DNA of 34,335 nucleotides from Methanosphaera sp. GTDB taxonomy: Archaea > Methanobacteriota > Methanobacteria > Methanobacteriales > Methanobacteriaceae. Made by a program: the position numbers and the translations under genes. This document shows positions 1,363 through 31,881 of this stretch, piece after piece. The first letter of the stretch is position 1; each line of letters opens with the position of its first letter. The stretch spans positions 1-34,335 of the forward strand of contig NZ_JALEKL010000005.1 in assembly GCF_022768985.1 (NCBI RefSeq), given 5' to 3'. Below the pieces are notes generated by a model that saw only the letters and a program-made list of their open reading frames with translations, had not been told where the DNA came from and did not search any database.

Positions 1363-1421
1363 TATTTTAAACATACTTTTTATTGTTCAGTTTTTTGAAC
1401 ATATCGAATACTTGGTGGAAT

Positions 1422-3131: not shown

Positions 3132-3832
3132 CTGCAATATATACAGCTCCATATCATTTAAGATGTGAAACAAATGGTATATTTAATGTTTCAAGACGTA
3201 ATCTTGAATCTATAAATATTGCTGATATTAAATTATATGGAGATGAAAAAAACATTCCACTTTCTATGAAAATATGTGATGTTGATGGTATTCAACTTAA
3301 AGGAGATATGAAGGTTGTTGTTAAAATTGATGGAAAATCAAATATTAAAACAACTATGAAAGATGGTGTATTGAATTTAAATATTGATACATCAAAGTTA
3401 GGATTTAAAAAACATGATGTTGAAGTTATATTTGGTGTAAATTCCAGGTATAATCAGAAATCTATAAAAACATCTATTGATATGACTCCTAATGCTATTG
3501 TTTGTGTTGAATTACTTAAACATACCTCAAACATAGAAGTAGTAACCCAAGCTATAGATATGAATAATAAATCTCTTGATGGTTCTATAATTTATAAGCT
3601 TAATAGTGTTACAATAAAAGATTCACATAATAATACATTAAAATCACAACTTAAAGATGGATGTGCAAAACTCATTTATAATACATCATCTCTAAAAACT
3701 GGTAAGTATAATCTTACAGTTAAATATGTGGGAAGTAATAATTATCAGAAAGAGTGTATTGTTGTATTTGGTGTGGATAGTTTAGATGCTCTTAAAGTTA
3801 ATAAGTCATCTAAACTTACAATGGTAGAATAA
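3128..3832 (+). pseudogene. Adhesin-like protein, C-terminal part in the -1 frame
   Basis: Reading on from T3128 in the -1 frame gives LTAIYTAPYHL, which completes the interrupted Ig-like module of the upstream gene, and then about 230 further residues of the same module type (for example GKYNLTVKYVGSNNY near the end). There is no start codon with a ribosome binding site of its own: the first ATG (3266) has none, and about 45 coding residues precede it. One lost base in the short T run at 3127-3129, a sequencing error, or ribosomal frameshifting would all explain the arrangement. The rejoined product would be about 800 residues with a signal peptide and no visible membrane anchor. The stop lies inside a terminator-like hairpin. 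Confidence 0.75.
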
Positions 3833-14590: not shown

Positions 14591-14619
14591 ATTAATTAAT
14601 TATTTAATTAATTAATTAA
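14591..14619. repeat. TTAA/AATT tandem repeat at the end of dapL
   Basis: The stretch consists of reiterated ATTA units, interrupted once by TATTT, and overlaps the dapL stop codon. It is self-complementary and could fold as a weak A/T hairpin at the dapL 3' end. Confidence 0.5.
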
Positions 14620-15851
14620 AATTCAAGTTTACTTATTCTTTCCATTGCCTGTTGTGTTTTTTCATATGTGTTGAAAGCTGTAAGTCTTATGTATCCTTCA
14701 CCACTTGGACCAAATCCTGCACCTGGTGTACTTACAACGTTTGCTTCATTTAGAAGTAAATCAAAGAATGCCCAGGAGTCTATGTCATTTGGTGTTTTTA
14801 CCCATATGTATGGTGAGTCTACTCCACCATATACATCAAGTCCTATTGCCTCAAGACTTTCACGTATGAGTTGTGCATTTTTAGCATAGTAGTCGAGGTT
14901 TTCTTGTGTTTCTTTTTTACCTTCTGGTGTGTAGATTGATTCTGCAGCACGTTGTACAGGGTATGATACTCCGTTGAATTTTGTTGATTGACGTCTGTTC
15001 CATAGTGGTGTTAGTTGTACATCTTCACCTTTTGAGTTTTTAATTATTAATTCTTCTGGAACTACACAGTATGCACAACGTGTTCCTGTGAAACCTGCTG
15101 TTTTTGAGTAACTTCTAAATTCTACTGCTACTTCTTTTGCACCTTCTACTTCATAGATTGAATGTGGTACATTTTCAGTTTTGATAAATGCTTCATATGC
15201 TGCATCAAAGAGTATGATTGCATCGTTGTCTTTTGCATAGTCGATCCATTCTTTAAGTTGATCTTTTGTTAGTGTTGTTCCTGTTGGATTGTTAGGGTAG
15301 CATAGGTAGATGATGTCTACATCTTCTTTTGGAAGTTCTGGTACAAAGTTGTTTTCTGCTGTTGCAGGTAGGTATACTATGTTTTCATAGTGTTGTCCAT
15401 CATCACTCATTTCTCCACTACGTCCTGCCATTACATTACTGTCTACATATACAGGATATACTGGGTCTGTTACTGCAATTATGTTGTCTTTTGCAAATAG
15501 TTCTTGGAAGTTTCCTGTGTCACATTTTGCACCGTCACTTATGAATACTTCTGTGTTTTTAAGTTCTACACCTAGTGGTTTGAAGTCATTTTCAATGATT
15601 GCATCAATAAGGAAGTCATATCCTTGTTCTGGTCCATATCCACGGAATTTTTCTGCATCTGCCATTTCATCTACTGCATCTTTGTATGCTTTTATTACAG
15701 TTTTTGATAATGGTTTTGTTACATCTCCAATTCCCATTTTTATAAGATCTACATCTGGGTTTTGATTTTGGAATTCATCTACTCTTCTTGCTATTTCTAC
15801 AAATAGGTAGTTGTTTTGTATTAAGTCAAAGTTTTCATTTACTTTTACCAT
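14616..15851 (-). CDS. dapL: LL-diaminopimelate aminotransferase
   Basis: DapL makes LL-diaminopimelate from tetrahydrodipicolinate and glutamate in one step in the lysine pathway; it is the usual route in methanobacteria. The 411-residue protein is a class I/II PLP aminotransferase. It shows [12 protein letters not shown] (37-48), [11 protein letters not shown], the CYPNNPTG loop (184-191), the PLP-contacting D216 in LFDAAYEAF, and the Schiff-base lysine K250 in [13 protein letters not shown]. All key residues are present and length is normal. It lies between gltX (52 bases upstream on the same strand) and the histone gene. No strong ribosome binding site is clear, though AAGGTGAAAACATGG surrounds the start. 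Confidence 0.95.
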
Positions 15852-15903: not shown

Positions 15904-17595
15904 TTAGTTGTGTGTGTAGTAAAATACGAGTTCATCGTCTGTTTTTGCATCAAGACGTGCAAATCCAAATCTTTCAAGTTGTACAATATCATCAACTTGT
16001 GCATCTTTTGCATCTGCTTCTATGTATCCTTCAATTTCTGTGCTATCTTGCATTACTACTTTTGCTTTTATTGCATCTTGTGTTGGACTCCATTGGATGA
16101 TTGATGCTTTTTGTTTTTGTGCATCTTCTAGTGTGTAGCTGTTATATTTTGCTATGTCATCTTTGCTTATGTCGATATTTACTAAGTCCATTAGTCTTAA
16201 TGGTTTTTGTGATGTTTTTGCCTTGTCATAGTCATCTTTTGGAATGTATGCTGTTTTGTTGAAGTTAAGTTTTCTTAGTCCTTTTTCTGGTTTGTTGTAG
16301 TGTAGTTCACGTTCTATTGTTTGTTGTACTTTGTCATCTGGTATATCTTCTATGTCTACTTCTACTGCATTTGGTATGAAGAAGTATCTGTTTGTGTTTT
16401 CTTCGATTATGTTACGGTTTAGTCCGTATACTTTCTTCCAGCTTACTGTTGCATCTGCTTGTTTTGGTCCTATTTCTTCGATTAATTCATAGAGTGCTTC
16501 TTTTTTAATTCCACGTCTTGCTATTGCACGGATTGTTCCTAGTCTTGGGTCATCCCATCCTGAATATGTGCCGTCAGCTATACCTGCACGTGCTTTTGAT
16601 GTACTTAATTCTACATCATCCATTTTTAGACGTCCGTAGTGTATGAATTCTGGTACTTCCCATCCGAAGTGTTTATATAAGTATGCTTGTTTTTCACTAT
16701 TTGCTAGGTGATCTTTTCCACGTAAAACATGTGTTAGTCCGAGAAGATGATCATCTACAGTAACTGAAAAGTTCATCATAGGATATATTCTGTATTTATT
16801 TCCTACTCTTGGATGTTCTTCATCAACAAGTCTCATTGCAGCCCAGTCACGGATAGCAGGGTTTTTATGGTTGATATCTGTTTTTACACGAAGTACAGCT
16901 TCTCCTTCTTTCATCTGGTCAAATTCATTCCAGAGTTTAAGGTTTTCCTCTACTGTGTTATCACGACATGGACATGGTGTACAACTATCTTTTAGTTTTT
17001 TAAATTCTCCACCATCACATGTACACATGTATGCTGCACCAAGTTCTATTGCTTTAACTGCATATTCATAGTATATTTCCATACGGTCTGATTGTGTAAT
17101 AATTTCATCAGGTTCAATACCAAGCCATTTGATATCTTCAACTATTGATTCATATGCATCAGGATCTACACGTTTTGGATCTGTATCTTCTATTCTTAAG
17201 ATAAGTTTTCCACCATATTTTTCCTGGTATAATTTATTAAGTATTGCTGCTCTTGCATGACCTATGTGTAATGGTCCTGAAGGGTTTGGTGCAAATCTTA
17301 ATACTACACCATCTTCTGTATTTTTAAGTTCTGGTAGACCTTTTGGTTTTGTATTTTCTCTTTTATGTTCTTGTACTCCACCATATTTTTCAAGTTCAGC
17401 TTTCTGTTCATCAGGTGAGAGTTTGTTAACTTTTGCTGTCATCTTTCCAGCAATCATTGATACTGTCTTTGGATCTTTTCTCATTTCAGGATTTTTTGAC
17501 ATTACCATCCCAATAACAGATCCTGTTTGACATTGATTTGAATGCTCAACAGCATTTGTTAGAGCATATTTATAAATAGTTTCTTCAATATCCAT
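15904..17595 (-). CDS. gltX: Glutamyl-tRNA synthetase, archaeal type
   Basis: The 563-residue class I synthetase charges tRNA-Glu (and in archaea without GlnRS also tRNA-Gln, for later amidation). The N-terminal extension of about 95 residues is typical of archaeal enzymes. The nucleotide motif is FAPNPSGPLHIGHARAAILN (HIGH at 110-113), and the KMSKS-like loop reads ELSTSKARAGI. A cysteine-rich insert (MCTCDGG ... CTPCPC, about 189-211) may bind zinc. The C-terminal third is the beta-barrel anticodon domain of the archaeal/eukaryotic GlnRS-like type. ATG at 17595 is followed by MDIEETIYKYAL. It may share a transcript with dapL. Confidence 0.95.
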   Translation of the reverse strand: MDIEETIYKYALTNAVEHSNQCQTGSVIGMVMSKNPEMRKDPKTVSMIAGKMTAKVNKLSPDEQKAELEKYGGVQEHKRENTKPKGLPELKNTEDGVVLRFAPNPSGPLHIGHARAAILNKLYQEKYGGKLILRIEDTDPKRVDPDAYESIVEDIKWLGIEPDEIITQSDRMEIYYEYAVKAIELGAAYMCTCDGGEFKKLKDSCTPCPCRDNTVEENLKLWNEFDQMKEGEAVLRVKTDINHKNPAIRDWAAMRLVDEEHPRVGNKYRIYPMMNFSVTVDDHLLGLTHVLRGKDHLANSEKQAYLYKHFGWEVPEFIHYGRLKMDDVELSTSKARAGIADGTYSGWDDPRLGTIRAIARRGIKKEALYELIEEIGPKQADATVSWKKVYGLNRNIIEENTNRYFFIPNAVEVDIEDIPDDKVQQTIERELHYNKPEKGLRKLNFNKTAYIPKDDYDKAKTSQKPLRLMDLVNIDISKDDIAKYNSYTLEDAQKQKASIIQWSPTQDAIKAKVVMQDSTEIEGYIEADAKDAQVDDIVQLERFGFARLDAKTDDELVFYYTHN

Positions 17596-17934: not shown

Positions 17935-19419
17935 TTGACAAAATCGTCTAATAACTTTAAAAAAAACAAATGGAACAGTTCATTTGCCTTTCTTATGGCA
18001 ATGATTGGGGCAGCGGTAGGTCTAGGAAACATTTGGCGATTTAATTATGTATTATATTCAGAAGGTGGGGGAGCATTCTTCATACCATACTTCACAGCGA
18101 TATTAATCATGGGAATACCATTTTTAATACTTGAATATGGAGTAGGATATAAATTTAAAGATTCTCTGTCAAATATATTAAAGAAAATCAAGCCAAAACT
18201 TGAATCACTAGGATGGTTTGTAGTACTGGCTGTATTTTTAGTACTGACATATTACATTGTAATTGTAGGATGGGACTTTATATACTTGATACTAAGTTTC
18301 TTTAAAGGATGGGGAGCAGATCCTAACATGTTCTTTGCAAATAACATAATTGTTGGTGGAGACAACATCAATGCCATAACACAACTAGTACTATCAGTAA
18401 CAGCAATAACAGCACTCTTATGGGCACTACTTTGGTATGTATCACATAAGTCAGTTGATGGAATTGAAAAAACAGTAAAGATTTTAATTCCAGTATTATT
18501 CATACTTATGATTTTCATTGTACTTTATGCATTAACACTACCAGGACAAATGTATGGAATAACAGAACTTCTTAAACCAGACTGGTCACTACTAGGTGAT
18601 GTTGGAATATGGCTTGCAGCATTTGGACAGATACTTTTCTCACTTTCAATGGGACAGGCAATGGCATTAACATATGCAAGTTATCTACCAGAAGATGCAA
18701 AACTTACAGATAGTGTACTACTTGTAGTTCTTGCAAATTCAGCCTTTGAAATATTCACAGCATTTGGAGTATTTTCAATTCTTGGATTTATGTGTCTTCA
18801 AAGTGGACTTCCAATAGAACAAGTAGCAACAAGTGGAACAGGACTCTTATTTATTGTATTCCCACAAATATTTAATATAATGGGAGATGTAGCATATATA
18901 CTTGGACCACTATTTTTCCTATGTGTACTATTTGCAGGTTTCACATCAATCATTGCACTCTTTGAGCCAATGCTAAATACAATATGTATGAAATTTAAAT
19001 TATCAAGAACAAAAGCAGCATCAATACTTACAATAATAGGATTTATAATATCAATACTATTTACAACAGGAGCAGGAAACTATCTTCTCACAGTAGTTGA
19101 TGAATTCCTAAACCAGTTTGCAATAGTTCTTGGTGTAATACTTCAGGCTGTAATTTTCGGATGGATATATGGTGTAGATAAGATAATACCACTTGTTAAT
19201 AAAAATTCAAAATTCCATGTAGGAAAACTATGGACAATAGTAATAAAGGTAGCATTACCAATAATTTTAACTATAATGTGGATACAGGGAATGCTTGAAT
19301 TAATAGGATCAAATGATCATATAACACTAGCAATTGAAGCAATTGTAACACTTATATTAATTATAGTTCCAGCCATATTAACAGCACTACCTGAAAAACA
19401 ATTAGAGGATGTAAATTAA
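17935..19419 (+). CDS. Sodium-dependent NSS/SNF-family transporter, copy 1
   Basis: This 494-residue membrane protein is a neurotransmitter:sodium symporter homologue, the family of LeuT, importing amino acids or related solutes with Na+. It has about 11-12 hydrophobic segments. TM1 holds GAAVGLGNIWRF and the GGGAFFIPY turn. TM3 has the Tyr-Tyr pair of the LeuT pocket (LTYYIVIVGWD), and TM6 reads FSLSMGQAMALTYASY. By alignment to LeuT, Asn286 and Glu290 are kept (NSAFEIF), as are the Na2 residues Thr354/Ser355 (AGFTS). Glu290 implies chloride-independent transport. Gln241 replaces LeuT Phe259 in the pocket. The start is TTG at 17935 after GGAGG. It is the first of six tandem copies. The substrate is unknown. 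Confidence 0.92.
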   Translation: MTKSSNNFKKNKWNSSFAFLMAMIGAAVGLGNIWRFNYVLYSEGGGAFFIPYFTAILIMGIPFLILEYGVGYKFKDSLSNILKKIKPKLESLGWFVVLAVFLVLTYYIVIVGWDFIYLILSFFKGWGADPNMFFANNIIVGGDNINAITQLVLSVTAITALLWALLWYVSHKSVDGIEKTVKILIPVLFILMIFIVLYALTLPGQMYGITELLKPDWSLLGDVGIWLAAFGQILFSLSMGQAMALTYASYLPEDAKLTDSVLLVVLANSAFEIFTAFGVFSILGFMCLQSGLPIEQVATSGTGLLFIVFPQIFNIMGDVAYILGPLFFLCVLFAGFTSIIALFEPMLNTICMKFKLSRTKAASILTIIGFIISILFTTGAGNYLLTVVDEFLNQFAIVLGVILQAVIFGWIYGVDKIIPLVNKNSKFHVGKLWTIVIKVALPIILTIMWIQGMLELIGSNDHITLAIEAIVTLILIIVPAILTALPEKQLEDVN

Positions 19420-19686
19420 CATTCTCTTCATTTTCTTTTTTTTACTAAATTATTTAAATTTAATTTCATAAATTATCCATTAGTTATTATTAATTCATAA
19501 TATAACTATTTAAAAAAGCTATTTTCATCATTTAATTCACTTATTTTATTCTAAATTATTTTATATTTATAAAAAGAGCATATTATTGACTATAAACTAA
19601 ATTAGTAAAAATTAAAGTAGTAGGTGATTTAATTTAAATCAGAAAATAAACAAAAAAATCAGTGGAATAGTTCATTTGCATTTCTC

Positions 19687-21120
19687 ATGGCAATGATTGG
19701 AGCAGCTATAGGTCTTGGTAATATATGGCGATTTAGCTATGTTTTATACTCCCAGGGTGGAGGAGCATTTTTCATACCATACATTACAGCAATAGTTATT
19801 ATGGGAATACCATTTCTAATAATGGAATATGCACTTGGATATAAATTTAAAGATTCACTGTCAAATATATTAAAAAAAGTAAAACCATACTTTGAATTTA
19901 TAGGATGGTTTGTAGCATTTTTAGTATTTTTAGTGTTGACATACTACGTTGTTATCATAGGATGGGATTGTCTTTATCTGATACTTAGCTTCTTTAAAGG
20001 ATGGGGAGCAGATCCTAATATGTATTTTAATAACAATATTATAATGGGAGGTTCTGAAAATTTCAGTGGAATATTTACACCAGTAATTCCTGTATCTATA
20101 ATAACAATAGTATTATGGATTATAATATGGTTTATTTCACATAAATCTCTTGATAATCTTTCAAAAGTTGTTAAAGTATTAATACCAACACTTTTCATAA
20201 TAATGGCTTTTATTATAATCTATGCTGTAACACTTCCAGGACATACAATTGGACTTTATGCACTATTTAAGCCTAACTGGTCACTTCTTTTAGATATTGA
20301 CATATGGCTTGCAGCATTTGGGCAGATATTATTCTCCCTTTCAATGGGACAGGCAATTGCATTAACATATGCTAGTTACCTCTCTGATGATGTTAAACTT
20401 GTAGATAATGTATTGTATGTTGTTGTATCAAATTCACTCTTTGAAATATTTACAGCAGTAGGAGTATTTTCTATTCTTGGATTTATGTGTCTTCAAAGTG
20501 GACTTCCAATAGAAGATGTAGCAACAAGTGGAACAGGATTATTGTTTATTGTATTTCCACAAATATTTAATATAATGGGAGATGTAGCATATATAATAGC
20601 TCCTCTATTTTTCCTATGTGTACTATTTGCAGGTATTACATCAGCATTGGCATTTCTTGAAGTAATAACAAATGGAGTGAGTATGAAATTTGGATATTCA
20701 AGAGTAAAATCTGTAACATTATTTTCAATAATAGGAGTTGCAATATCACTCATACTTACAACAGGAGCTGGAAACTACCTAATAACAATACTTGACACAT
20801 ACTTAAATCAGTTCGGAATACTTCTTGGTGTAATTCTTCAGGCAGTTGTAATTGGATGGCTTTATGGTGTTGAAAAACTTACAAGTATTATAAATGAAAA
20901 TTCAACAATAAAAGTTGGAAGATTATGGATACTGACAATAAAAATGATAATGCCTGTAATTTTAAGTATTATGTGGATATTTGGAATCTTTGATCTTATT
21001 GCATCTGAAGATCATCTGACACTAACAATTGAGGCAATAATAACAATAGCATTTATAGTAGTTCCATGTATACTTACAATACTTCCATCAAAAAATAGTG
21101 AAAATATAGAAAAAAATTAG
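19687..21120 (+). CDS. NSS/SNF-family transporter, copy 2, lacking a proper start codon
   Basis: The frame encodes a close relative of the neighbouring symporters, with GAAIGLGNIWRF in TM1, FSLSMGQAIALTYASY in TM6 (Gln at the LeuT Phe259 position, codon 20350-20352), NSLFEIF in TM7 and AGITS in TM8. Homology clearly extends upstream to 19633 (FKSENKQKNQWNSSFAFL), where the other copies begin, but no ATG, GTG or TTG exists between the in-frame TAA at 19630-19632 and the ATG at 19687. That ATG lies inside TM1 and would delete the conserved W-S-S-F-F segment. TTT at 19633 aligns with the TTG starts of the paralogues, after a weakened TAGGTG. It may be a recent pseudogene, otherwise intact to its stop. 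Confidence 0.8.
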   Translation: MAMIGAAIGLGNIWRFSYVLYSQGGGAFFIPYITAIVIMGIPFLIMEYALGYKFKDSLSNILKKVKPYFEFIGWFVAFLVFLVLTYYVVIIGWDCLYLILSFFKGWGADPNMYFNNNIIMGGSENFSGIFTPVIPVSIITIVLWIIIWFISHKSLDNLSKVVKVLIPTLFIIMAFIIIYAVTLPGHTIGLYALFKPNWSLLLDIDIWLAAFGQILFSLSMGQAIALTYASYLSDDVKLVDNVLYVVVSNSLFEIFTAVGVFSILGFMCLQSGLPIEDVATSGTGLLFIVFPQIFNIMGDVAYIIAPLFFLCVLFAGITSALAFLEVITNGVSMKFGYSRVKSVTLFSIIGVAISLILTTGAGNYLITILDTYLNQFGILLGVILQAVVIGWLYGVEKLTSIINENSTIKVGRLWILTIKMIMPVILSIMWIFGIFDLIASEDHLTLTIEAIITIAFIVVPCILTILPSKNSENIEKN

Positions 21121-21340
21121 TTAGTAATTAAATAAACAGTATTTAAAATAAAAATGAAAATAATATTTAAATTTTTCATTTTTCATATTCTTTTTTTAAA
21201 AATATTATAAATAAAATCCTCTTTTTTATATAAAATAATAAAAATCTAGTTTTTATTTAAATATACTAATTGTTTATAAATTTAAAAAACTATAAATATA
21301 TATTAATTTTATTAAAACTCAAAATATTGGGGGAGATTCA

Positions 21341-22843
21341 TTGACAGATTCATCCGATGAAGTTAAGAAAAATCAATGGGATAGCTCATTTTCTTTTCTT
21401 ATGGCTATGATCGGAGCAGCAGTAGGTTTAGGTAATATATGGAGATTTAGTTACGTAGTTTATTCACAAGGTGGAGGATCATTTTTTATACCATACTTTT
21501 TTGCAATATTAATTATGGGAATACCATTTTTAATACTAGAATATGGTCTAGGATTTAAATTTAAGGATTCACTTTCAAATATCCTTAAGAAAATCAAGCC
21601 GAAATTTGAAGTTGTAGGTTGGTTTGTAGCATTTCTAGTATTTTTAGTACTGACATACTATATTGTTATTATGGGATGGGATCTGATATATCTCATTTTA
21701 AGCTTCTTTAAAGGTTGGGGTGCAGATCCAAACATGTATTTTAATACAAATATTGTTGTAGGTGGAAACAATCTAAATGGTATATTTACACCAGTAGTTG
21801 CAGTAACAGCTGCAGTTATATTTATCTGGGCAGTATTATGGTATATTTCACATAAATCAGTTGATGGTATATCAAAAGCTGTTAAATTCCTTATTCCTGT
21901 TTTATTTATTATGATGGGATTTATTGTAATTTATGCTTTAACACTTCCTGGTAAAATGATAGGACTCACAGCACTATTTACGCCAGACTGGTCAGCCCTT
22001 GGTAATGTGGAAATATGGCTTGCAGCATTTGGACAGATTCTTTTCTCACTTTCAATGGGACAGGCAATTGCTGTAACATATGCAAGTTACCTTCCATCTA
22101 AAAGTAAACTTATTGATAATGTACTTATTGTTGTAGCATCAAATTCACTTTTTGAAATATTTACAGCAGTAGGAGTATTTTCTATTCTTGGTTTCATGTC
22201 ACTTAGAACAGGACTTCCAATAGAACAGATTGCAACAAGTGGAACAGGTCTTTTATTTGTTGTGTTCCCTGAAATATTCAACATTATGGGTGATGTTGCA
22301 TATATCATAGCACCATTGTTCTTCTTATGTGTGTTCTTTGCAGGTCTTTCAACGATCATTGCATATCTTGAGCCAATGTCTATGGCAATAACTAAGAAAT
22401 TTAAATTATCAAGATTTAAAGTAACAACAATTCTTACAGTAGTAGGTCTCATATTATCATTTGTATACACAACAGCTTCAGGAAACTTCCTTTTAACAAT
22501 TGCAGATGAATATCTTAATCAGTTTGCAATTTTACTTGGTGTAATTCTTCAGGCTATTATTGTTGCATGGTATTATGGATGTGATAAATTACTTGGTGTT
22601 TTAAATGAAAGTTCAACATTTAATGTAGGACGTAAATGGATTTTAATAATCAAAGTAGCACTGCCTATTATCTTAACAATACTATGGCTTCAAGGACTTA
22701 GAAGCGTACTTTTAACAGGAGACTTTACAGTACAGATGATTGAACTTGTAATTACAATTTTATTCATTGCAGTACCTGTAATATTAACACTACTTCCTGG
22801 AAAAGATAAAGATGATGGTAAAATTAAAGCAATAGAAGAGTAG
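21341..22843 (+). CDS. NSS/SNF-family transporter, copy 3
   Basis: A 500-residue sodium symporter homologue with the full set of membrane segments. It shows GAAVGLGNIWRFSYVVYS in TM1, LTYYIVIMGWD in TM3, FSLSMGQAIAVTYASY in TM6 (Gln241 at the LeuT Phe259 position) and NSLFEIF in TM7. Its TM8 reads AGLSTII, so the Thr-Ser pair of the Na2 site is swapped to Ser-Thr, unlike all other copies; both still offer hydroxyls. The C-terminal tail KDKDDGKIKAIEE is the donor of the tail now found on copy 4. TTG start at 21341 after GGGGGAG. It has its own TATA-like TATAAATATATA upstream (about 21291-21302), very like that of copy 1. Confidence 0.92.
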   Translation: MTDSSDEVKKNQWDSSFSFLMAMIGAAVGLGNIWRFSYVVYSQGGGSFFIPYFFAILIMGIPFLILEYGLGFKFKDSLSNILKKIKPKFEVVGWFVAFLVFLVLTYYIVIMGWDLIYLILSFFKGWGADPNMYFNTNIVVGGNNLNGIFTPVVAVTAAVIFIWAVLWYISHKSVDGISKAVKFLIPVLFIMMGFIVIYALTLPGKMIGLTALFTPDWSALGNVEIWLAAFGQILFSLSMGQAIAVTYASYLPSKSKLIDNVLIVVASNSLFEIFTAVGVFSILGFMSLRTGLPIEQIATSGTGLLFVVFPEIFNIMGDVAYIIAPLFFLCVFFAGLSTIIAYLEPMSMAITKKFKLSRFKVTTILTVVGLILSFVYTTASGNFLLTIADEYLNQFAILLGVILQAIIVAWYYGCDKLLGVLNESSTFNVGRKWILIIKVALPIILTILWLQGLRSVLLTGDFTVQMIELVITILFIAVPVILTLLPGKDKDDGKIKAIEE

Positions 22844-25800
22844 CCATCCTCTTTTCATTTTTCACTTTTTTTCTATTTTTTTTAATATTTTTATGAAATT
22901 ACTTCTTTTTTGAATATTTACCCTATTTTTATTTAAAAGTTAAATTATACATTTTTCAACTATTTTTATGAATTAATACATACTTTTTAGATTAAATTCC
23001 CTATTTTTAAAACTAAAATTATTAATACATCTCCTAATACATATAATATTTAAAAAATAACTAAAAACAAAGGGAGGGAATTATTTTTTGAATAAATCAG
23101 ATAAATCAAAAAACCAGTGGAACAGTTCATTTGCATTTCTCATGGCAATGATTGGATCAGCCGTTGGTCTGGGTAATATATGGAGATTTAACTATGTACT
23201 CTACTCTGAAGGTGGTGGTGCATTTCTAATACCATATATTATAGCAATACTTGTTATGGGAATTCCATTTCTTATACTTGAATATGGTCTTGGATATGGA
23301 CTTCGTGATTCACTATCAAATATACTAAAGAAAATTAAGCCATACCTTGAAGTTGTTGGATGGTTTACATCGTTTATTGTATTTTTAATACTTACATATT
23401 ATATTGTTATTGTAGGATGGGATGTAATATATCTGGCACTTAGCTTCTTTAAAGGTTGGGGTGCAGATCCTAACCTGTTTTTTAGCAACCATATTGTTGT
23501 AGGTGGAAATGATCTTAATTCTATTACATCATTTGTACTGCCACTTAGTATTATAACAGTACTACTTTGGATTGTATTATGGTATATTTCATGTAAGTCA
23601 ATAGATAGAATTGAAAAAACAGTAAAAGTATTAATACCACTTCTTTTCTTGTTAATGGCATTTATTGTATTTTATTCACTTACACTACCAGGACATATGA
23701 TGGGACTTCAAGCACTCTTTGAACCTAGATGGGAACTTCTTTCAGATATAAAGATTTGGCTTGCAGCCTTTGGACAGGTACTCTTTTCACTTTCAATTGG
23801 TATGACAATTGCAATAACATATGCAAGTTATCTGCCTGATGGTAGTGAAATTACAGGTAATATATTAACTGTTGTATTTTCAAATTCATTTTTTGAATTA
23901 TTTACAGCAGTAGGTGTATTTTCAATTCTTGGTTTTATGTCACTTCAAAGTGGACTTCCAATAGATCAGCTTGCAACAAGTGGAGCAGGACTATCTTTTA
24001 TAGTATTTCCACAGGTATTTAATATATTAGGTGATAGTGCATATATTCTAGGACCTATATTTTTCCTATGCATACTATTTGCTGGTATAACATCAACACT
24101 TGCACTTTTTGAAACTATGCGAAATCCAATATCAATCAAGTTTGGATATTCAAGACGTAAATCATCAACAATACTTGCAATAGTAGGAGTTATAATATCA
24201 CTCATATATACAACAGGATCTGGAAGCTTTATACTTACAGTAGCAGATAACTTCCTTAATAATACTGGATTATTATTTGCTGTTGCTCTTCAATGTATAA
24301 TCTTTGGATGGATGTATGGTGTAGATAAACTACTTCCAAAGATAAATGAAAATTCAAAGATAAAAGTTGGAAAAACATGGACAAGGGTAATTAAGTACAT
24401 CTTACCATTCATACTGTTAATATTATGGATATCAGGAGTTATGGATGTTGTAAAACTTAAAGATGTAAATGAAATGATAATACAAGCAATAATTACTATT
24501 TTAATAATTGTTGTACCTATAATATTATCAAAACTACCAGCAAAAGATAAAGACGATGGTAAAATTAAACAATAGAAGAGTAGCTATCTTCTTTTCTTAT
24601 TTTTTCTTTTTTTCTATTTTTTAGTACTTATTTTTCAATTTAATATTTAATTTTTTTATTTAGAAGTTTATATTAATCATTTTTTAATTATTTTTAGTAA
24701 ATAATACATATTTTTCATATTATTTAGTTTATTATTTAACTAAATTTATTAATACATCCTATTATACATATAATATTTAAATTTACTAAAAAACTAGAAG
24801 GGGGAATGATTTTTTGGGAAATTCAGATGATCAAATCCAAGGTCAACAGAAGACTAGGTGGAATTCTAGATTTGCATTTCTTATGGCAATGATAGGATCT
24901 GCTGTTGGTCTTGGAAATATATGGAGATTTAACTATGTACTATATTCACAGGGTGGAGGAGCATTTCTAATACCATATATTACAGCAATAATTGTTATGG
25001 GATTGCCATTTCTTATACTTGAATATGGTGTAGGATATCATCTTAGAGATTCACTTTCAAATATACTAAAAAGAATTAAGCCATACCTTGAAGTTGTAGG
25101 ATGGTTTATACTGTTAATTGTATTTTTAATACTTACATACTACCTTGTTATTGTAGGATGGGATGTTATATATCTGGCACTTAGCTTCTTTAAAGGCTGG
25201 GGTGCAGATCCTAACATGTTCTTTAGTAATAATATTGTTGTAGGAGGAGATGATCTTAATTCTATCACATCATTTGTACTACCAATGTCTCTTATAACAA
25301 TACTTCTATGGATTGTATTATGGTATACATCATGTAAGTCAATAGATAGAATTGAAAAAATAGTAAAATCATTAATACCACTTCTTTTCTTGTTAATGGC
25401 ATTTATTGTATTTTATTCACTTACACTACCAGGACATATGATAGGACTTCAAGCATTATTTAGACCTAAATGGGAACTTCTCTCAGATCCATCAATATGG
25501 GTTGCAGCCTTTGGACAGGTACTATTTTCACTTTCAATGGGTCTGTCAATTGCAATAACATATGCAAGTTATCTACCTGATGAGAGTGAAATTACAGGTA
25601 ATGTAGTTGCTGTTGCATTTTCAAATTCATTTTTTGAATTATTTACAGCAATTGGAGTATTTTCAATTCTTGGATATATGTCACTTCAAAGTGGACTTCC
25701 AATAGATCAGCTTGCAACAAGTGGAGCAGGACTTTCATTTATTGTGTTCCCACAGGTATTTAATGTAATGGGTAATAGTGCATATATTCTTGGACCTGTA

Positions 25801-26282
25801 TTTTTCCTATGTATATTCTTTGCAGGTTTAACATCACTTATTTCATTATTTGAAACAATGAGAAATGCACTTTCAATGAAGTTTGGATTTACAAGACGTA
25901 AATCATCAACAATACTAACAATTTTTGGACTTGTAATATCACTTGTTTATACAACAGGATCAGGAAGTTTCATACTTACAATAGCAGATGCATTCCTTAA
26001 TAATATGGCATTAATACTTGGTGTAATACTTCAAGCTGTGATCTTTGGATGGATGTATGGTGTTGAAAAACTAATTCCTGCAATAAATAAGAATTCAAAA
26101 CTAAAAGTAGGAAAAACATGGACTGCTGTTATAAAATATATTCTGCCTGTAATTTTATCATTACTGTGGATATGTGAAGTTATTGATGTTATAACATTTG
26201 ATGATATAAATGTTTTAATTATACAGATAATAATAGCAGCTATACTTATAATTGCACCAATAGTACTTACAAAACTACCAGC
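22801..26282 (+). repeat. Two tandem 1,741-base duplication units covering copies 4 and 5
   Basis: AAAAGAT occurs at 22801-22807 (end of copy 3), 24542-24548 (end of copy 4) and 26283-26289 (end of copy 5), each exactly 1,741 bases apart. After this heptamer copy 4 carries the tail and 3' flank of copy 3 (three mismatches and one missing base over about 55 bases). Before it, copy 4 matches copy 5 (ACTACCAGC). The upstream leaders of copies 4 and 5 are also alike (ATTAATACATC and ACATATAATATTTAAA). This is the footprint of an unequal exchange at the microhomology. Confidence 0.75.
23088..24575 (+). CDS. NSS/SNF-family transporter, copy 4
   Basis: A 495-residue symporter homologue, closest to copy 5. 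TM1 reads GSAVGLGNIWRF, with Ser where copies 1-3 have Ala at the LeuT Asn21 position. TM6 reads FSLSIGMTIAITYASY, so Met239 stands at LeuT Phe259, the residue found in many bacterial family members. NSFFELF and AGITS keep the sodium-site residues. Shared features with copy 5 include YISCKSIDRIEK and LRDSLSNILK. The C-terminus KDKDDGKIKQ comes from the copy 3 tail; loss of one base relative to copy 3 brings the stop three codons early, and the former AATAGAAGAGTAG remains just behind. TTG start at 23088 after GGGAGGG. Confidence 0.92.
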   Translation: MNKSDKSKNQWNSSFAFLMAMIGSAVGLGNIWRFNYVLYSEGGGAFLIPYIIAILVMGIPFLILEYGLGYGLRDSLSNILKKIKPYLEVVGWFTSFIVFLILTYYIVIVGWDVIYLALSFFKGWGADPNLFFSNHIVVGGNDLNSITSFVLPLSIITVLLWIVLWYISCKSIDRIEKTVKVLIPLLFLLMAFIVFYSLTLPGHMMGLQALFEPRWELLSDIKIWLAAFGQVLFSLSIGMTIAITYASYLPDGSEITGNILTVVFSNSFFELFTAVGVFSILGFMSLQSGLPIDQLATSGAGLSFIVFPQVFNILGDSAYILGPIFFLCILFAGITSTLALFETMRNPISIKFGYSRRKSSTILAIVGVIISLIYTTGSGSFILTVADNFLNNTGLLFAVALQCIIFGWMYGVDKLLPKINENSKIKVGKTWTRVIKYILPFILLILWISGVMDVVKLKDVNEMIIQAIITILIIVVPIILSKLPAKDKDDGKIKQ

Positions 26283-26316
26283 AAAAGATGAAAATTCAAC
26301 ACCAAAAATAGATTAA
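24814..26316 (+). CDS. NSS/SNF-family transporter, copy 5
   Basis: A 500-residue symporter homologue, the sister of copy 4, with most residues identical in the membrane segments. TM1 has GSAVGLGNIWRF, TM3 LTYYLVIVGWD, TM6 FSLSMGLSIAITYASY with Leu244 at the LeuT Phe259 position, TM7 NSFFELF and TM8 AGLTS. The Leu/Met difference to copy 4 is in the substrate pocket. Its tail KDENSTPKID differs from that of copy 4 and is probably the original tail of the ancestor. TTG start at 24814 after AAGGGGG; a longer polar N-terminus (MGNSDDQIQGQQKTR) precedes TM1. A hairpin terminator follows at 26333-26372. Confidence 0.92.
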   Translation: MGNSDDQIQGQQKTRWNSRFAFLMAMIGSAVGLGNIWRFNYVLYSQGGGAFLIPYITAIIVMGLPFLILEYGVGYHLRDSLSNILKRIKPYLEVVGWFILLIVFLILTYYLVIVGWDVIYLALSFFKGWGADPNMFFSNNIVVGGDDLNSITSFVLPMSLITILLWIVLWYTSCKSIDRIEKIVKSLIPLLFLLMAFIVFYSLTLPGHMIGLQALFRPKWELLSDPSIWVAAFGQVLFSLSMGLSIAITYASYLPDESEITGNVVAVAFSNSFFELFTAIGVFSILGYMSLQSGLPIDQLATSGAGLSFIVFPQVFNVMGNSAYILGPVFFLCIFFAGLTSLISLFETMRNALSMKFGFTRRKSSTILTIFGLVISLVYTTGSGSFILTIADAFLNNMALILGVILQAVIFGWMYGVEKLIPAINKNSKLKVGKTWTAVIKYILPVILSLLWICEVIDVITFDDINVLIIQIIIAAILIIAPIVLTKLPAKDENSTPKID

Positions 26317-26332
26317 AAAAAATAATAATTAT

Positions 26333-26372
26333 GTGTGGAGTATATAAATTAAACTTCACACTACCTTTTTTT
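26333..26372 (+). terminator. Hairpin terminator of symporter copy 5
   Basis: GTGTGGAG (26333-26340) pairs with CTTCACAC (26354-26361), eight pairs including one G-U, followed by a T-run from 26365. A second inverted repeat, ATCACAT (26393-26399) / ATGTGAT (26402-26408), stands further down, about 190 bases before copy 6, and could be a regulator site. Confidence 0.6.
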
Positions 26373-26595
26373 CATTTTTTTTTATTGTTAATATCACATA
26401 CATGTGATGATAAAAAAGATTAGATTTAAAAATTTTTTTCTTATTTTCCAAATATTTTAATTTTTTTTTACTTATTTTTTTAATTTTTTTAGTAAGTATA
26501 TGTTTATTTTTTTTATATTTTTTTATAAAAGTCTAAATATTGTAAATTATAAATGTATATCATGTTTAATAATTATTAATTGATTGGGGAATCTA

Positions 26596-28104
26596 TTGAC
26601 ACAATCATCAAATCAAATTAGTAAGACTAGGTGGAGCAGTACATTTGCATTTCTTATGGCAATGATTGGTTCTGCTGTTGGTCTTGGAAATATATGGAGA
26701 TTTAATTATGTTGTATATTCAAATGGTGGGGGAGCATTCTTCATACCATATTTATGTGCAATAATCTTTATGGGTGTACCATTTCTTTTAATAGAATATG
26801 GTGTAGGTTATAAATTTAGGGATTCATTTTCAAATATCTTAAAGAAGATTAAGCCATGCTTTGAAGTTCTTGGATGGCTGGTTATGCTATTTTTATTCCT
26901 TGACTTGTCATATTATATGATAGTTCTTGGATGGGATTGTATATACTTTATTTTAAGCTTCTTTAAAGGATGGGGTGCAGATCCTAACATGTTTTTTAAT
27001 GCCAATCTTATTGTTGGTGGAATGAACTTAGATAGTTTAACAACGTTTGTACTTCCAGTTACAGCAGTTACAATAATTCTCTGGGCAGTTTTATGGTATA
27101 TTTCACACAAGTCTATTGATGCAATTGAAAAGACTGTGAAAATATTAATACCTCTCATGTTCTTTTTAATGATATTTATTGTATTTTATTCACTTACACT
27201 TCCAGGACATGATGTTGGACTTCAAGCACTCTTTACGCCTGACTGGTCGGCTCTTGGAAATATTGATATTTGGCTTGCAGCATTTGGACAGGTACTTTAT
27301 TCACTTTCTATGGGTGAGGCTGTAGCACTTACATATGCAAGTTATTTACCTGAAGGATCAAAGCTTATTGATAACTTACTTGTTGTTGTTGCTTCAAATT
27401 CATTTTTTGAAATATTTACAGCAGTAGGGGTATTTTCAATTCTTGGATATATGGCACTTGAAACTGGTTGTTCTGTAGGACAGGTTGCAACAAGTGGAAC
27501 AGGACTTTTATTTATTGCATTCCCACAGGTATTTAATATAATGGGAAACTTTGCATATATACTTGGACCTGTATTTTTCCTATGTGTTCTATTTGCAGGA
27601 CTTACATCGATTGTAGGAATGTTTGAACCTATTGTTAATGCAATGTCAGCTAAGTTTGGACTTTCAAGAACAAAGGCTGCAACAATTGTAGGACTTATTG
27701 GTCTTTGTGTATCACTTATATATACAACAGGATCTGGAAACTTTATTCTTACAGTTGTTGATGAATTCTTCAGTGAATTTGCACTACTTCTTGGTGTAAT
27801 ACTTCAAGTTATTATATTTGGATGGTTCTATAGTATTGAAAAAATTGTTCCAATACTTAATGAAAATTCATCAATACATGTTGGAAAAAAATGGATATTT
27901 ACAATTAAATTCCTGCTTCCTATTATTCTAACCATTATATGGCTTAGTGGTGTTGCAGGTCTTATAGGAACACAAGATGGTGCAACAGTTCTAATTGAGG
28001 CTGTTGTTACTGTGATGTTTATAGTTGTTCCAATTGTATTAACATTACTTCCAGAAAAAAAGAGCGATGTTAATTTAAATCCAGCCATAGAAGAATCAAG
28101 CTAA
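26596..28104 (+). CDS. NSS/SNF-family transporter, copy 6
   Basis: A roughly 502-residue symporter homologue and the most divergent of the array in its pocket. TM6 reads YSLSMGEAVALTYASY: Glu241 stands at the LeuT Phe259 position and Tyr replaces the preceding conserved Phe (LeuT Phe253). An acidic side chain there could favour a basic or amine substrate. TM1 has GSAVGLGNIWRF, TM7 NSFFEIF, TM8 AGLTS, so sodium sites are kept. In TM3 the motif is DLSYYMIVLGWD, still with the Tyr pair. The TTG at 26596 is chosen over the TTG at 26584, since GGGGA (26586-26590) lies before the former, matching the other copies. A hairpin covers its stop codon. Confidence 0.91.
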   Translation: MTQSSNQISKTRWSSTFAFLMAMIGSAVGLGNIWRFNYVVYSNGGGAFFIPYLCAIIFMGVPFLLIEYGVGYKFRDSFSNILKKIKPCFEVLGWLVMLFLFLDLSYYMIVLGWDCIYFILSFFKGWGADPNMFFNANLIVGGMNLDSLTTFVLPVTAVTIILWAVLWYISHKSIDAIEKTVKILIPLMFFLMIFIVFYSLTLPGHDVGLQALFTPDWSALGNIDIWLAAFGQVLYSLSMGEAVALTYASYLPEGSKLIDNLLVVVASNSFFEIFTAVGVFSILGYMALETGCSVGQVATSGTGLLFIAFPQVFNIMGNFAYILGPVFFLCVLFAGLTSIVGMFEPIVNAMSAKFGLSRTKAATIVGLIGLCVSLIYTTGSGNFILTVVDEFFSEFALLLGVILQVIIFGWFYSIEKIVPILNENSSIHVGKKWIFTIKFLLPIILTIIWLSGVAGLIGTQDGATVLIEAVVTVMFIVVPIVLTLLPEKKSDVNLNPAIEESS

Positions 28105-28296: not shown

Positions 28297-29454
28297 ATGA
28301 GTGATAAAAAACAAAATCCACAAAAGTCCACTCAAACATCACAAAAAAACAAGAAGATAAATAAATCTCTAAGAAATAGACTTATCATACTTATAATACT
28401 AGTCATTATACTTATGGCACTACTTGTATTTGCAAATCCATTCAGTAGTGATGGTAAAGCAAATGTTCTATCACAACCTAAGGGTAACCTTTCAATAAGT
28501 ATGACAGGAGATGTGATGTTTGGACGTAAAACACCAGCAGTTCTATCAGATAATCCATATCGTTATGTAAGTGATGTAATAGGACAGTCAGATCTACTTG
28601 TTGTAAATACAGAAAATCCATTTACAACCTCATCAAATGCTGTAAAACCTGATGTACCACTTAAGGCTGATCCAAGCTACATTAAGTATGTTAATGGAAC
28701 AAATTATACAGTAGTATCTGCTAATGCTAACAACCACGTATTTGACTATGGTATTGATGGAATGCAAGATTCAATTAAAAACTTAGATTCAGCAAATATT
28801 GCACATATTGGTGCAGGAAACAATAAAGCTGAGGCAACAAAACCATTTACAATGGAAAAAAATGGTCATAATATAACAGTATTTAACTTCATGGATAGTG
28901 AAAACTTTGCAGAATACAGCCAAGAAGTACTACCAAAGGCAACAGATACATCTGCAGGATTTGCTGCATGGGATGATGAAGAATCACCAAAACAAATAGC
29001 ACAGGCAAAAAATAATTCAGACTTTGTTATTGTATATATGCACTATGGTAATGAATATAGCAGATCTCCAAATGAAAACCAGGAAAAAATCTCACATAAA
29101 TCAATAGATGCTGGTGCTGATGCTGTTGTTGGATCACATGCCCATGTAACACAGGGTGTTGAAATGTATAATGGAAGACCAATATTTTACAATCTTGGAA
29201 ATTTCATATTTGATCAAAGTAATCCTGCAACACACAGTGCATACTTCATAAATTTCAATATTACAGATACAAATGTAACAGCAACACTATATCCAATATA
29301 TATCAATGGATATCTTCCACATTATATGGATGTTACAGATGCATCCTCATTTATTGAAACATTAAATCCACAATGTCCTGATATGAATATAGATGATAAT
29401 GGACATGGTATAATTCATTATTCAATAGATGATAAAAATAAGACCAAAAAATAA
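28297..29454 (+). CDS. CapA/PgsA-family metallophosphatase-like membrane-anchored protein
   Basis: The 385-residue protein has a polar, Lys/Gln-rich N-terminus, one membrane segment (about residues 29-46, LIILIILVIILMALLVFA) and an extracellular CapA domain. CapA proteins take part in poly-gamma-glutamate synthesis or anchoring in bacteria and have a phosphatase-like fold. Seen motifs are MTGDVMFGR (69-77), VNTENP (103-108), ANANNHVFDYG (142-152), MHYGNEY (248-254), GSHAHVTQ (279-286) and LGNFIFDQ (300-307), all with the expected Asp, Asn and His residues. No capB/capC ligase genes are adjacent, so a role in polyglutamate is not shown; cell-surface or pseudomurein-related work is possible. 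The start at 28297 has only a weak GTGAAAAG before it. It lies about 190 bases after the symporter array. Confidence 0.83.
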   Translation: MSDKKQNPQKSTQTSQKNKKINKSLRNRLIILIILVIILMALLVFANPFSSDGKANVLSQPKGNLSISMTGDVMFGRKTPAVLSDNPYRYVSDVIGQSDLLVVNTENPFTTSSNAVKPDVPLKADPSYIKYVNGTNYTVVSANANNHVFDYGIDGMQDSIKNLDSANIAHIGAGNNKAEATKPFTMEKNGHNITVFNFMDSENFAEYSQEVLPKATDTSAGFAAWDDEESPKQIAQAKNNSDFVIVYMHYGNEYSRSPNENQEKISHKSIDAGADAVVGSHAHVTQGVEMYNGRPIFYNLGNFIFDQSNPATHSAYFINFNITDTNVTATLYPIYINGYLPHYMDVTDASSFIETLNPQCPDMNIDDNGHGIIHYSIDDKNKTKK

Positions 29455-29727: not shown

Positions 29728-31881
29728 ATGATTGATATAGAAAGAACAATTGCTACAGAATTAAATATTAAACCATGGCAAGCAAATGCAGCTATCACAC
29801 TTATTGGTGAGGATAACACAATACCTTTCATAGCAAGATACAGAAAAGAGGCAACAGGAGGACTTGATGATGAACAATTAAGAACTCTTAATGAACGTCT
29901 TAAATATCTTACAAATCTTGAAGATAGAAAGGATCAAATTATTGCATCTATTGACAAACAGGGAAAACTAACAGATGAACTAAAAGCTGAGATAGAAAAT
30001 GCAGAAACATTAATAGAAGTTGAAGATTTATACAGACCATATAAAACTAAAAAACGAACACTTGCATCAAAAGCAAAAGAAAAAGGTCTTGAACCACTTG
30101 CACTTACAATCTATGCACAGGAAATTGATCATCCAATTGAGGAGGAAGCTGAAAAATTCATAACAGATGAAGTGCCAACAGTAAAAGATGCACTTAAAGG
30201 TGCAGGTGACATAATTTCTGGTATGATATCTGATAATGCTACATTTAGACGTTTTATTCGTGATGTAACAGTAAGAAAAGGAAAAATTATCACATCACCT
30301 AAAGATGAGGAAGTATCATCAGAATATGAAATGTACTATGAGTACTCAGAATTTATCACAGATATTCCAGAACACAGAGTTCTTGCAATAAATCGTGGAG
30401 AAAAAGAAGGTATTCTTAAAGTAACAATTGAAGCACCAATTGAAAATATTAAATTCTATCTTGAAGATGAAATATTAATTAACTTTGCATCAACTCCTGA
30501 GGCAATAGAATACAATGAATATACAGAAGAATTCCTTAAAAAAGCAATGAAATCTGCATATAAAAGATTAATTGCACCATCAATTGAACGTGAAATCAGA
30601 TCAACACTTACTGATGAATCAGAAAATAAGTCAATTAAGGTATTTAAGAAAAATCTTGAACAGCTTCTTATGCAACCACCAATTGTATCAAAAAGAGTAC
30701 TTGGATGGGATCCTGCATTTAGAACAGGATGTAAACTTGCAGTTATTGATGAATTTGGAAAAGTTCTAGATACAGCAGTTATTTATCCTACAGAACCTCA
30801 AAATAAGGTTCAAGAGGCAAAAGAAGTTGTACTTAACTTAATTGACACATATGATATTGATATTATTGCACTTGGTAATGGTACAGCATCACGTGAATCA
30901 GAAGAAGTAATATCTGAAATTATTAAAGGTACTGATGTATCATATGCTATTGTAAATGAGGCTGGTGCATCTGTATATTCAGCAAGTGATCTTGCACGTG
31001 AGGAATTTCCTGACTATGATGTTACAGAACGTGGAGCTATATCAATTGCAAGAAGACTTGAAGATCCTTTATCTGAACTTGTAAAAATTGATCCTAAAAG
31101 TATTGGTGTTGGTCAATATCAGCATGATATGAATGCTAAAAAGCTTGATGAATCACTTGATGGTGTTGTTGAAAAGAGTGTAAACAATGTTGGTGTTGAT
31201 GTAAATACAGCATCTCATACTCTTATGGAGCATATTGCTGGAATTTCATCAAAAATTGCAAAAAGTATTGTAGCATATCGTGAAGAGAATGGTTCATTTA
31301 AAAATCGTGACCAGCTTCTTGATGTTAAAGGTATTGGAGCTAAAACCTTCCAACAGTGTGCTGGATTTATGAGAATTTATAATTCAAGTAATATTCTTGA
31401 TAGTACCTGTGTTCACCCTGAATCATACGATGTAGTATCTGCTCTTCTTACAATTTATGGATATGATTTATCTGATATTAGAAATGGTGGAGTAGACATT
31501 AAAATTGATGATAAGGAAAAAATTGCAGAAGAACTAGGTGTGGGTCTTTGGACACTTGAGGATATTCTAGCTGAACTTAAAAAACCTGGACGTGATCCAA
31601 GGGAAGAATTTGATATGCCACAGCTTAGAAAGGATGTTCTTGCAATTGAGGATTTAGAGGAAGGTATGGTTCTTGAGGGTGTTGTACGTAATGTTGTTGA
31701 CTTTGGTGCATTTGTTGATATTGGAGTTCACCAGGATGGACTTGTGCATATTTCACAACTTGTTGAAGATAAGTTTGTAAAACATCCTATGGATATTGTA
31801 AATGTTGGTGATATTGTAGAAGTTAAAATTTTAGATGTGGATTTAAAGCTTAATAGAATCTCACTTTCTATGATATTATAA
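29728..31881 (+). CDS. tex: Tex-family RNA-binding protein with S1 domain
   Basis: The 717-residue protein has the full Tex layout: N-terminal helical domain (1-320, with RPYKTKKRTLASKAKEKGLEPLA), a YqgF RNase H-like domain (about 323-450, VLGWDPAFRTGCKLAVID), tandem helix-hairpin-helix motifs (about 490-545, HIAGISSKIAKSIV and LLDVKGIGAKTFQQCAGF) and a C-terminal S1 domain (about 645-717, EGVVRNVVDFGAFVDIGVHQDGLVHISQL). Tex binds nucleic acid and affects transcription; it is related to eukaryotic Spt6. It is nearly universal in bacteria and sporadic in archaea, so acquisition from bacteria is plausible, though codon use matches the neighbours. GAGG at 29717-29720 supports ATG 29728. It appears monocistronic. 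Confidence 0.93.
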   Translation: MIDIERTIATELNIKPWQANAAITLIGEDNTIPFIARYRKEATGGLDDEQLRTLNERLKYLTNLEDRKDQIIASIDKQGKLTDELKAEIENAETLIEVEDLYRPYKTKKRTLASKAKEKGLEPLALTIYAQEIDHPIEEEAEKFITDEVPTVKDALKGAGDIISGMISDNATFRRFIRDVTVRKGKIITSPKDEEVSSEYEMYYEYSEFITDIPEHRVLAINRGEKEGILKVTIEAPIENIKFYLEDEILINFASTPEAIEYNEYTEEFLKKAMKSAYKRLIAPSIEREIRSTLTDESENKSIKVFKKNLEQLLMQPPIVSKRVLGWDPAFRTGCKLAVIDEFGKVLDTAVIYPTEPQNKVQEAKEVVLNLIDTYDIDIIALGNGTASRESEEVISEIIKGTDVSYAIVNEAGASVYSASDLAREEFPDYDVTERGAISIARRLEDPLSELVKIDPKSIGVGQYQHDMNAKKLDESLDGVVEKSVNNVGVDVNTASHTLMEHIAGISSKIAKSIVAYREENGSFKNRDQLLDVKGIGAKTFQQCAGFMRIYNSSNILDSTCVHPESYDVVSALLTIYGYDLSDIRNGGVDIKIDDKEKIAEELGVGLWTLEDILAELKKPGRDPREEFDMPQLRKDVLAIEDLEEGMVLEGVVRNVVDFGAFVDIGVHQDGLVHISQLVEDKFVKHPMDIVNVGDIVEVKILDVDLKLNRISLSMIL

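Follow-up and report, generated by a model that had tools for sequence, protein, structure and literature searches.

Bacterial and archaeal carriers of the neurotransmitter:sodium symporter (NSS) family serve as models of the human neurotransmitter transporters, and in the monoamine carriers an Asp stands in place of LeuT Gly24. How few changes re-aim an NSS pocket is an open question. In one study, LeuT F259 corresponds to MhsT M236 and SLC6A14 W327, LeuT V104 to SLC6A14 V128, and the 259 position is termed a "volumetric sensor" in LeuT and MhsT (PMC9599917). The same study describes the 104 and 259 residues as neighbours in the pocket, gives the 104 position as generally Val, Leu or Ile across the family, and reports that SLC6A14 V128F abolished the transport of Lys and Arg while sparing that of neutral substrates (PMC9599917). 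Here we describe six consecutive NSS genes on the forward strand at 17935-28104 of the window, which is the whole of contig C5 (34,335 bp) of a Methanosphaera-type genome of ~1.6 Mb (15 contigs, 98% complete).

We propose, with moderate confidence, that a single NSS gene was amplified in place and that the copies kept the transport machinery while their side-chain pockets diverged into at least three types with different predicted substrates. All six open reading frames (ORFs) matched PF00209 (NSS/SNF), copy 1 over its length with an E-value of 4.3e-86 and 290 bits against a cut-off of 27, and copies 2-6 all above the cut-off. They constitute the complete NSS set of the genome, as a genome-wide PF00209 search returned 12 stretches belonging to these six genes (E-values down to 5.8e-56). 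Pairwise protein identity between the copies was 58-78%, copies 4 and 5 being the closest (78%), and because of this divergence it is unlikely that the array was produced by assembly duplication. An earlier, sequence-only reading of this stretch had named six same-strand NSS paralogues here; the family matches confirm that observation, and its interpretation is partly supported. The copies and the two codons of most interest were as follows.

17935..19419, + strand: NSS copy 1 (PF00209, LeuT mapping); TTG start; A21/V104/Q259; 259 codon CAG at 18655-18657
19633..21120, + strand: NSS copy 2; A21/V104/Q259; TTT at the TTG-start site, first ATG at 19687; 259 codon CAG at 20350-20352
21341..22843, + strand: NSS copy 3; A21/V104/Q259; S-T at 354/355 instead of T-S; 259 codon CAG at 22061-22063
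23088..24575, + strand: NSS copy 4; S21/I104/M259, an MhsT-like pocket; 259 codon ATG at 23802-23804; fold model
24814..26316, + strand: NSS copy 5, sister of copy 4; S21/I104/L259; 259 codon CTG at 25543-25545
26596..28104, + strand: NSS copy 6; S21/D104/V111/Y253/E259, an acidic pocket; likely TTG start at 26596, ORF opening at 26584; fold model
26902..26904, + strand: GAC codon of copy 6, Asp at LeuT V104 (LeuT mapping)
27316..27318, + strand: GAG codon of copy 6, Glu at LeuT F259 (LeuT mapping)

Residues were numbered on LeuT via an alignment, the LeuT sequence having been checked against PDB 2a65. On this numbering all six copies kept N27, the Y107-Y108 pair, N286 and E290. The side chains of the Na1 and Na2 sites (N27, T254 and N286; T354 and S355) and Y108 were present throughout, with Ser at the T254 position and with T-S at 354/355 except in copy 3, which has S-T. 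The Glu at LeuT 290, found in all six, is that of chloride-independent prokaryotic NSS. Gly24 was likewise kept in all six copies, none of which had the Asp found at this position in NSS of the monoamine type (SERT/DAT/NET). Based on the retention of Gly24 and Glu290, the copies are likely to be chloride-independent Na+:amino-acid symporters rather than amine carriers. The nonsynonymous rate (dN) was below the synonymous rate (dS) in every copy pair by the NG86 method (0.14/0.39 for copies 4/5, 0.24/0.90 for copies 1/6), indicating that the copies are or were maintained. The extracellular motif GWGADPN, which the sequence-only reading had taken as a shared signature, does occur in all six copies but is no mark of the array, since it recurs in the NSS of other genera; single-copy orthologues carry variants of it such as GWGSNPD.

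AlphaFold models of copies 4 and 6, built from seven sequences, each showed 12 main helices, and their best solved matches were all NSS. The TM-score of the copy 4 model (m7f1ce6623bb9) against LeuT was about 0.82, and that of the copy 6 model (m5ec480949016) against LeuT and MhsT, normalised to the target, was 0.79-0.84. A profile search of the PDB returned nothing at a threshold of 1e-90 and was repeated at 1e-58. Local alignments without gaps to LeuT and to the dopamine transporter, together with published structures, place positions 104 and 259 in the pocket. A location of residue 259 outside the pocket had been named beforehand as what would refute substrate specialisation; at the level of fold and alignment, the results agree with a pocket location.

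At the named pocket positions the copies read as follows. In order along the array, position 259 in transmembrane helix (TM) 6 reads Q, Q, Q, M, L, E and position 21 reads A, A, A, S, S, S, so that the residues listed in the sequence-only reading, including those of the core and the Tyr253 of copy 6, were all correct. The Q clade includes eight genes from other species, of which six occupy the syntenic site; at an overall identity of ~80% all eight read A21/V104/F253/Q259, and copies 1-3 retain the A21/V104/Q259 of these unamplified relatives. In copies 4-5 positions 21, 104 and 259 have changed together to Ser, Ile and Met or Leu, which is the pocket of the M-type paralogue of the genus. Met at 259 occurs in copy 4 only, copy 5 having Leu, and copies 1-3 and 6 neither. 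One-base changes connect the 259 codons CAG (copies 1-3), CTG (copy 5) and ATG (copy 4) in series. Copy 6 additionally has Asp at LeuT V104, Val at I111, Met at I359 and Tyr at 253. Its Asp104 and Tyr253 are found in no other row of ~149 NSS of the family; 17 other rows have Glu259, and in none of these is a second pocket site acidic. The SLC6A14-like combination of Trp259 with Val104 was absent from copy 6, which has Glu and Asp there. The Asp104 of copy 6, which the sequence-only reading overlooked, is the strongest case for a change of pocket in the array, and we know of no described NSS with a di-acidic pocket of this kind (Asp104 and Glu259 with Tyr253).

Across the family rows, Met or Leu at 259 accompanied Ser21 and Ile104 in 55 of 65, and Gln259 accompanied Ala or Leu at 21 and Val104 in 46 of 49, counts that overstate the evidence because the rows belong mostly to two old clades. 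On the tree the coupling of 259 with 104 or 21 came down to four independent contrasts, mostly in the same direction and too few for significance.

The surroundings of the array point to its origin. Flank proteins of the window, searched against NSS-bearing loci of genus mates, showed a conserved order, namely a dapL-like aminotransferase, gltX, NSS, the PGA_cap gene, Tex and acdA. The flanks in the window were as follows.

14616..15851, - strand: class I/II aminotransferase, probably LL-diaminopimelate aminotransferase (name inferred), conserved upstream flank (PF00155; synteny)
15904..17595, - strand: gltX, glutamyl-tRNA synthetase, conserved upstream flank, divergent (PF00749; synteny in seven genus mates)
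28297..29454, + strand: PGA_cap-family protein, conserved downstream flank (PF09587; synteny)
29728..31881, + strand: Tex RNA-binding protein, downstream flank (PF16921, PF09371; synteny)

The gltX-PGA_cap interval holds a single NSS gene in six genus mates (G111, G116, G117, G118, G121 and G126), three such genes in G108 and six in this genome. Judged by flank proteins (gltX 81%, acdA 85%), no genus mate is nearer than G108. Since a conserved syntenic gene that is single in six genus mates is present here in six copies, we read the array as a local amplification of that one gene.

In a tree of 91 rows all six copies fell in the Methanosphaera Q clade (SH-aLRT 100) and the G108 trio was separate; with the pocket columns removed, the support was 99/97 for the Q clade and 98/89 for the G108 trio. 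Most genus mates also carry the M-type paralogue, which is missing from this genome and from G108. Two ways in which copies 4-5 might have come by their M-type pocket were rejected. Their placement within the M-type clade was rejected over the whole gene without pocket columns (approximately unbiased test, p 0.0002; single segments, p 0.058 and 0.032), and an acquisition of M-type segments was rejected as there was no M-like patch outside the pocket sites. Of 60 sites at which the M and Q types differ, copy 4 was Q-like at 36 and M-like at 12, the latter including 21, 104 and 259. The two rejections imply that members of the Q clade evolved the M-type pocket afresh.

We propose that the starting point was the single Methanosphaera NSS gene between gltX and PGA_cap, which would have encoded a chloride-independent Na+:alpha-amino-acid symporter, and that it was amplified in tandem in this lineage, the copies staying under purifying selection and keeping the ion and gate machinery while the pockets diverged. 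We predict polar or small neutral amino acids as the substrates of copies 1-3, which have the ancestral Ala21/Val104/Gln259. With Ser21/Ile104 and Met or Leu at 259, copies 4-5 are predicted to carry hydrophobic amino acids, as MhsT does, and would restore the function otherwise carried by the missing M-type paralogue. For copy 6, with Asp104/Tyr253/Glu259, the predicted substrates are amino acids whose side chains carry a positive charge (Lys, Arg, ornithine); its acidic pocket together with the kept Gly24 and Glu290 leads us to predict Na+-coupled, chloride-independent uptake of cationic alpha-amino acids, a prediction drawn from sequence and from analogy. A more specific account is put forward only tentatively. 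In it, the M-type gene would have been lost, tandem copies of a Gln-type gene would have regained a hydrophobic pocket through the coordinated changes at 21, 104 and 259 (perhaps on two occasions, in G108 as well as here), and copy 6 would have gained a novel di-acidic cationic pocket.

Several findings weigh against this explanation as a whole. Across the family NSS, Q, M, E, L, W, S, A and F all occur at position 259; variation there is not peculiar to the array, so substitutions may be neutral or may only broaden specificity. Copies 1-3, being identical at 21, 104 and 259, may share substrates and look redundant at these positions. The varying residues do lie at positions tied to substrate choice in published structures and mutants. 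The broader claim of the sequence-only reading, that a transport core was held constant while the pocket varied, stands for the ion and gate residues and for purifying selection; as a statement about the pocket as a class it is not supported, because among TM sites invariant in the eight relatives 8 of 14 pocket sites and 71 of 174 others varied among the six copies (p = 0.18, or p 0.23 when only sites with at least three different residues count). The part that holds is the joint change of a few specific positions. On the same side of the balance, the fold models were only moderately confident (pLDDT 69-70) and did not contain the unwound TM6, the clade uniting the six copies had weak support (80/66 without pocket columns), a common array with G108 was not rejected (p 0.15), and copy 2 lacks a standard start codon, reading TTT at 19633 instead of the TTG of the other copies, directly after an in-frame TAA.

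The alternative that survives best, which we regard as a real but minority possibility, concerns history only, leaving the functional side of our explanation intact. It holds that the ancestor shared with G108 already had several copies with different pockets, that conversion within each genome later made the copies alike, and that the pocket switch of copies 4-5 and of one G108 copy had a single origin. One of the three G108 copies is also S21/I104/L259, and this copy, in the nearest genus mate, likewise lies at the PGA_cap end. Runs of identical synonymous codons suggest conversion between copies 4 and 5 (p 0.0025; in TM4-5), between copies 1 and 2 (p 0.04; from TM7 to extracellular loop 4) and between two G108 copies (p 0.03). 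A common clade of copies 4-5 with the G108 Leu259 copy was rejected over the whole gene (p 0.003), yet by segment only the middle rejected it (p 0.0001), TM1-3 (p 0.28) and the C segment (p 0.14) did not, and the middle segment looks converted between two G108 copies. As the whole-gene rejection comes from this one segment, an independent switch in G108 is only a possibility. Against an old array stand the separate clade of the G108 trio and the grouping of copies 4-5 with other window copies in every segment, the latter with weak support.

Rather less likely, in our view, is that the array serves dosage, the amplification having been kept for uptake capacity or condition response, with all copies carrying the same broad range of neutral amino acids and the pocket drifting at a tolerant position. 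The range of residues at 259 across the family, the lack of a significant excess of pocket variability over background and the identity of copies 1-3 are all as expected of drift, and the conservative change V128I at the 104 position of SLC6A14 hardly altered specificity (PMC9599917). However, the invariance of 21, 104, 253 and 259 in the eight relatives indicates that the unamplified gene does not tolerate change at these sites. Moreover, three of them changed together in copies 4-5, and a pocket with two acidic side chains, as in copy 6, is unlikely to have kept its specificity unchanged. That copy 6 or the whole array carries biogenic amines or polyamines instead of amino acids is improbable, although the sequence-only reading had allowed for amines. 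Acidic residues do occur in the copy 6 pocket and the Drosophila dopamine transporter has one a position further along TM3 (D121; a Gly mutant in several PDB entries), but all six copies keep Gly24 and the Na1 residues and thus the carboxylate site.

For copy 2, a Shine-Dalgarno-like GGTGA is intact; the first canonical in-frame start is the ATG at 19687, which lies inside TM1, and initiation there would remove the beginning of that helix. Possible explanations of the TTT are an error in sequencing, an unusual start codon and incipient decay of the gene. For copy 6, the TTG at 26596, with GGGGA just upstream, is more likely to be the start than 26584. The gaps between copies are 213-267 bp long with 11-17% GC, and each contains runs of at least six T as well as TATA-like stretches. 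Each copy is probably its own transcription unit, although gap features are weak evidence in DNA of such composition. A promoter scan with a bacterial model, which is uninformative for archaea, gave a count near the shuffle mean, and Rfam showed no riboswitch near the array.

The sequence-only reading had suggested that the array reflects dependence on host or bacterial solutes. This is not backed by the three biosynthesis markers tested, IlvC, ArgG and TrpA, which are all present and give no sign of auxotrophy. Gut lineages are described with nitrogenase and some biosynthetic losses, the vertebrate-associated ones mostly with complete amino-acid pathways (PMC13135261). Given the three marker enzymes, the array would more likely save biosynthetic cost or nitrogen than cover an auxotrophy.

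NSS coordinates were listed for 48 genomes of the family, including every genome with at least six NSS matches. Among these, apart from this genome and the three genes of G108, no run of at least three adjacent NSS genes was found, although fragmented assemblies could hide such runs. The size of the array, suspected beforehand to be unusual for an archaeon, is unusual among these 48 genomes. The total number of NSS genes is unexceptional, other genera having up to 14, dispersed or paired. In the phylum, NSS genes occurred in 117 of 152 genomes and 7 of 20 genera; these seven genera are apparently gut-associated, and other genomes of the family, though near-complete, have no NSS. Our literature search found no paper on NSS in Methanosphaera.

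Some further observations were made on other NSS genes and on the rest of the window. Beside a normal NSS gene, genus g9 has an NSS-like ORF of ~790-905 residues (L204:248-2626; also L205, L206, L127, L138, L140, L146 and L153) with a long, charged, low-complexity C-terminal tail and degenerate Na+ and gate residues (e.g., N27 to Gly, N286 to Ser), which is possibly a transceptor-like sensor rather than a carrier. In one genus mate an NSS gene (L208, G120:C4:2233-3695) is broken by several stops and frameshifts. The window starts with a 5S rRNA gene (3-124) and contains no tRNA genes. A 582-residue ORF at 1383-3131, which looks like a surface protein, had no Pfam match and lies beside an ORF at 3266-3832 with weak matches to Ig-like and macroglobulin domains.

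The array sets six natural variants of one scaffold side by side, with invariant relatives as reference, and the pockets of copies 1, 4, 5 and 6 can be told apart by a few identifiable positions. If our prediction for copy 6 is true, Asp104 in TM3 with Glu259 in TM6 makes a cationic-amino-acid NSS. The family of the parts is known; the new variants are the copy 6 pocket and the arrangement.

Compared with LeuT (Aquifex aeolicus, PDB 2a65, TC 2.A.22), the copies are alike in fold (TM-score about 0.8) and in N27, N286, the 354/355 hydroxyls, Gly24, Y108 and Glu290, whereas positions 21, 104, 253, 259 and 359 differ, with Gln, Met, Leu or Glu in place of LeuT Phe259, and the Phe320 position is Thr or Ala. 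Of the structural matches listed for the copy 6 model, MhsT, which transports hydrophobic amino acids (PDB 4us3, 6yu2-6yu7), had the highest identity (30%). Copy 4 shares the Met of MhsT at the 259 position (M236, PMC9599917) and copy 5 has Leu there; this resemblance is confined to copies 4-5, and the array proteins extend further at the C-terminus, the models showing 12 helices. The comparison with SLC6A14 (ATB0,+), which takes cationic and neutral substrates, lies in the dependence of cationic choice on the TM3 residue at the 104 position, next to the 259 residue (PMC9599917); SLC6A14 has Val128 and Trp327 and no acids there, whereas copy 6 would use Asp104 and Glu259. Closest of all are the single-copy Q-type NSS of Methanosphaera (e.g., G118:C1:1555137-1556606), which occupy the orthologous site, are about 62-66% identical and share the pocket of copies 1-3, but exist as one copy, begin with ATG and show no diversification of the pocket.

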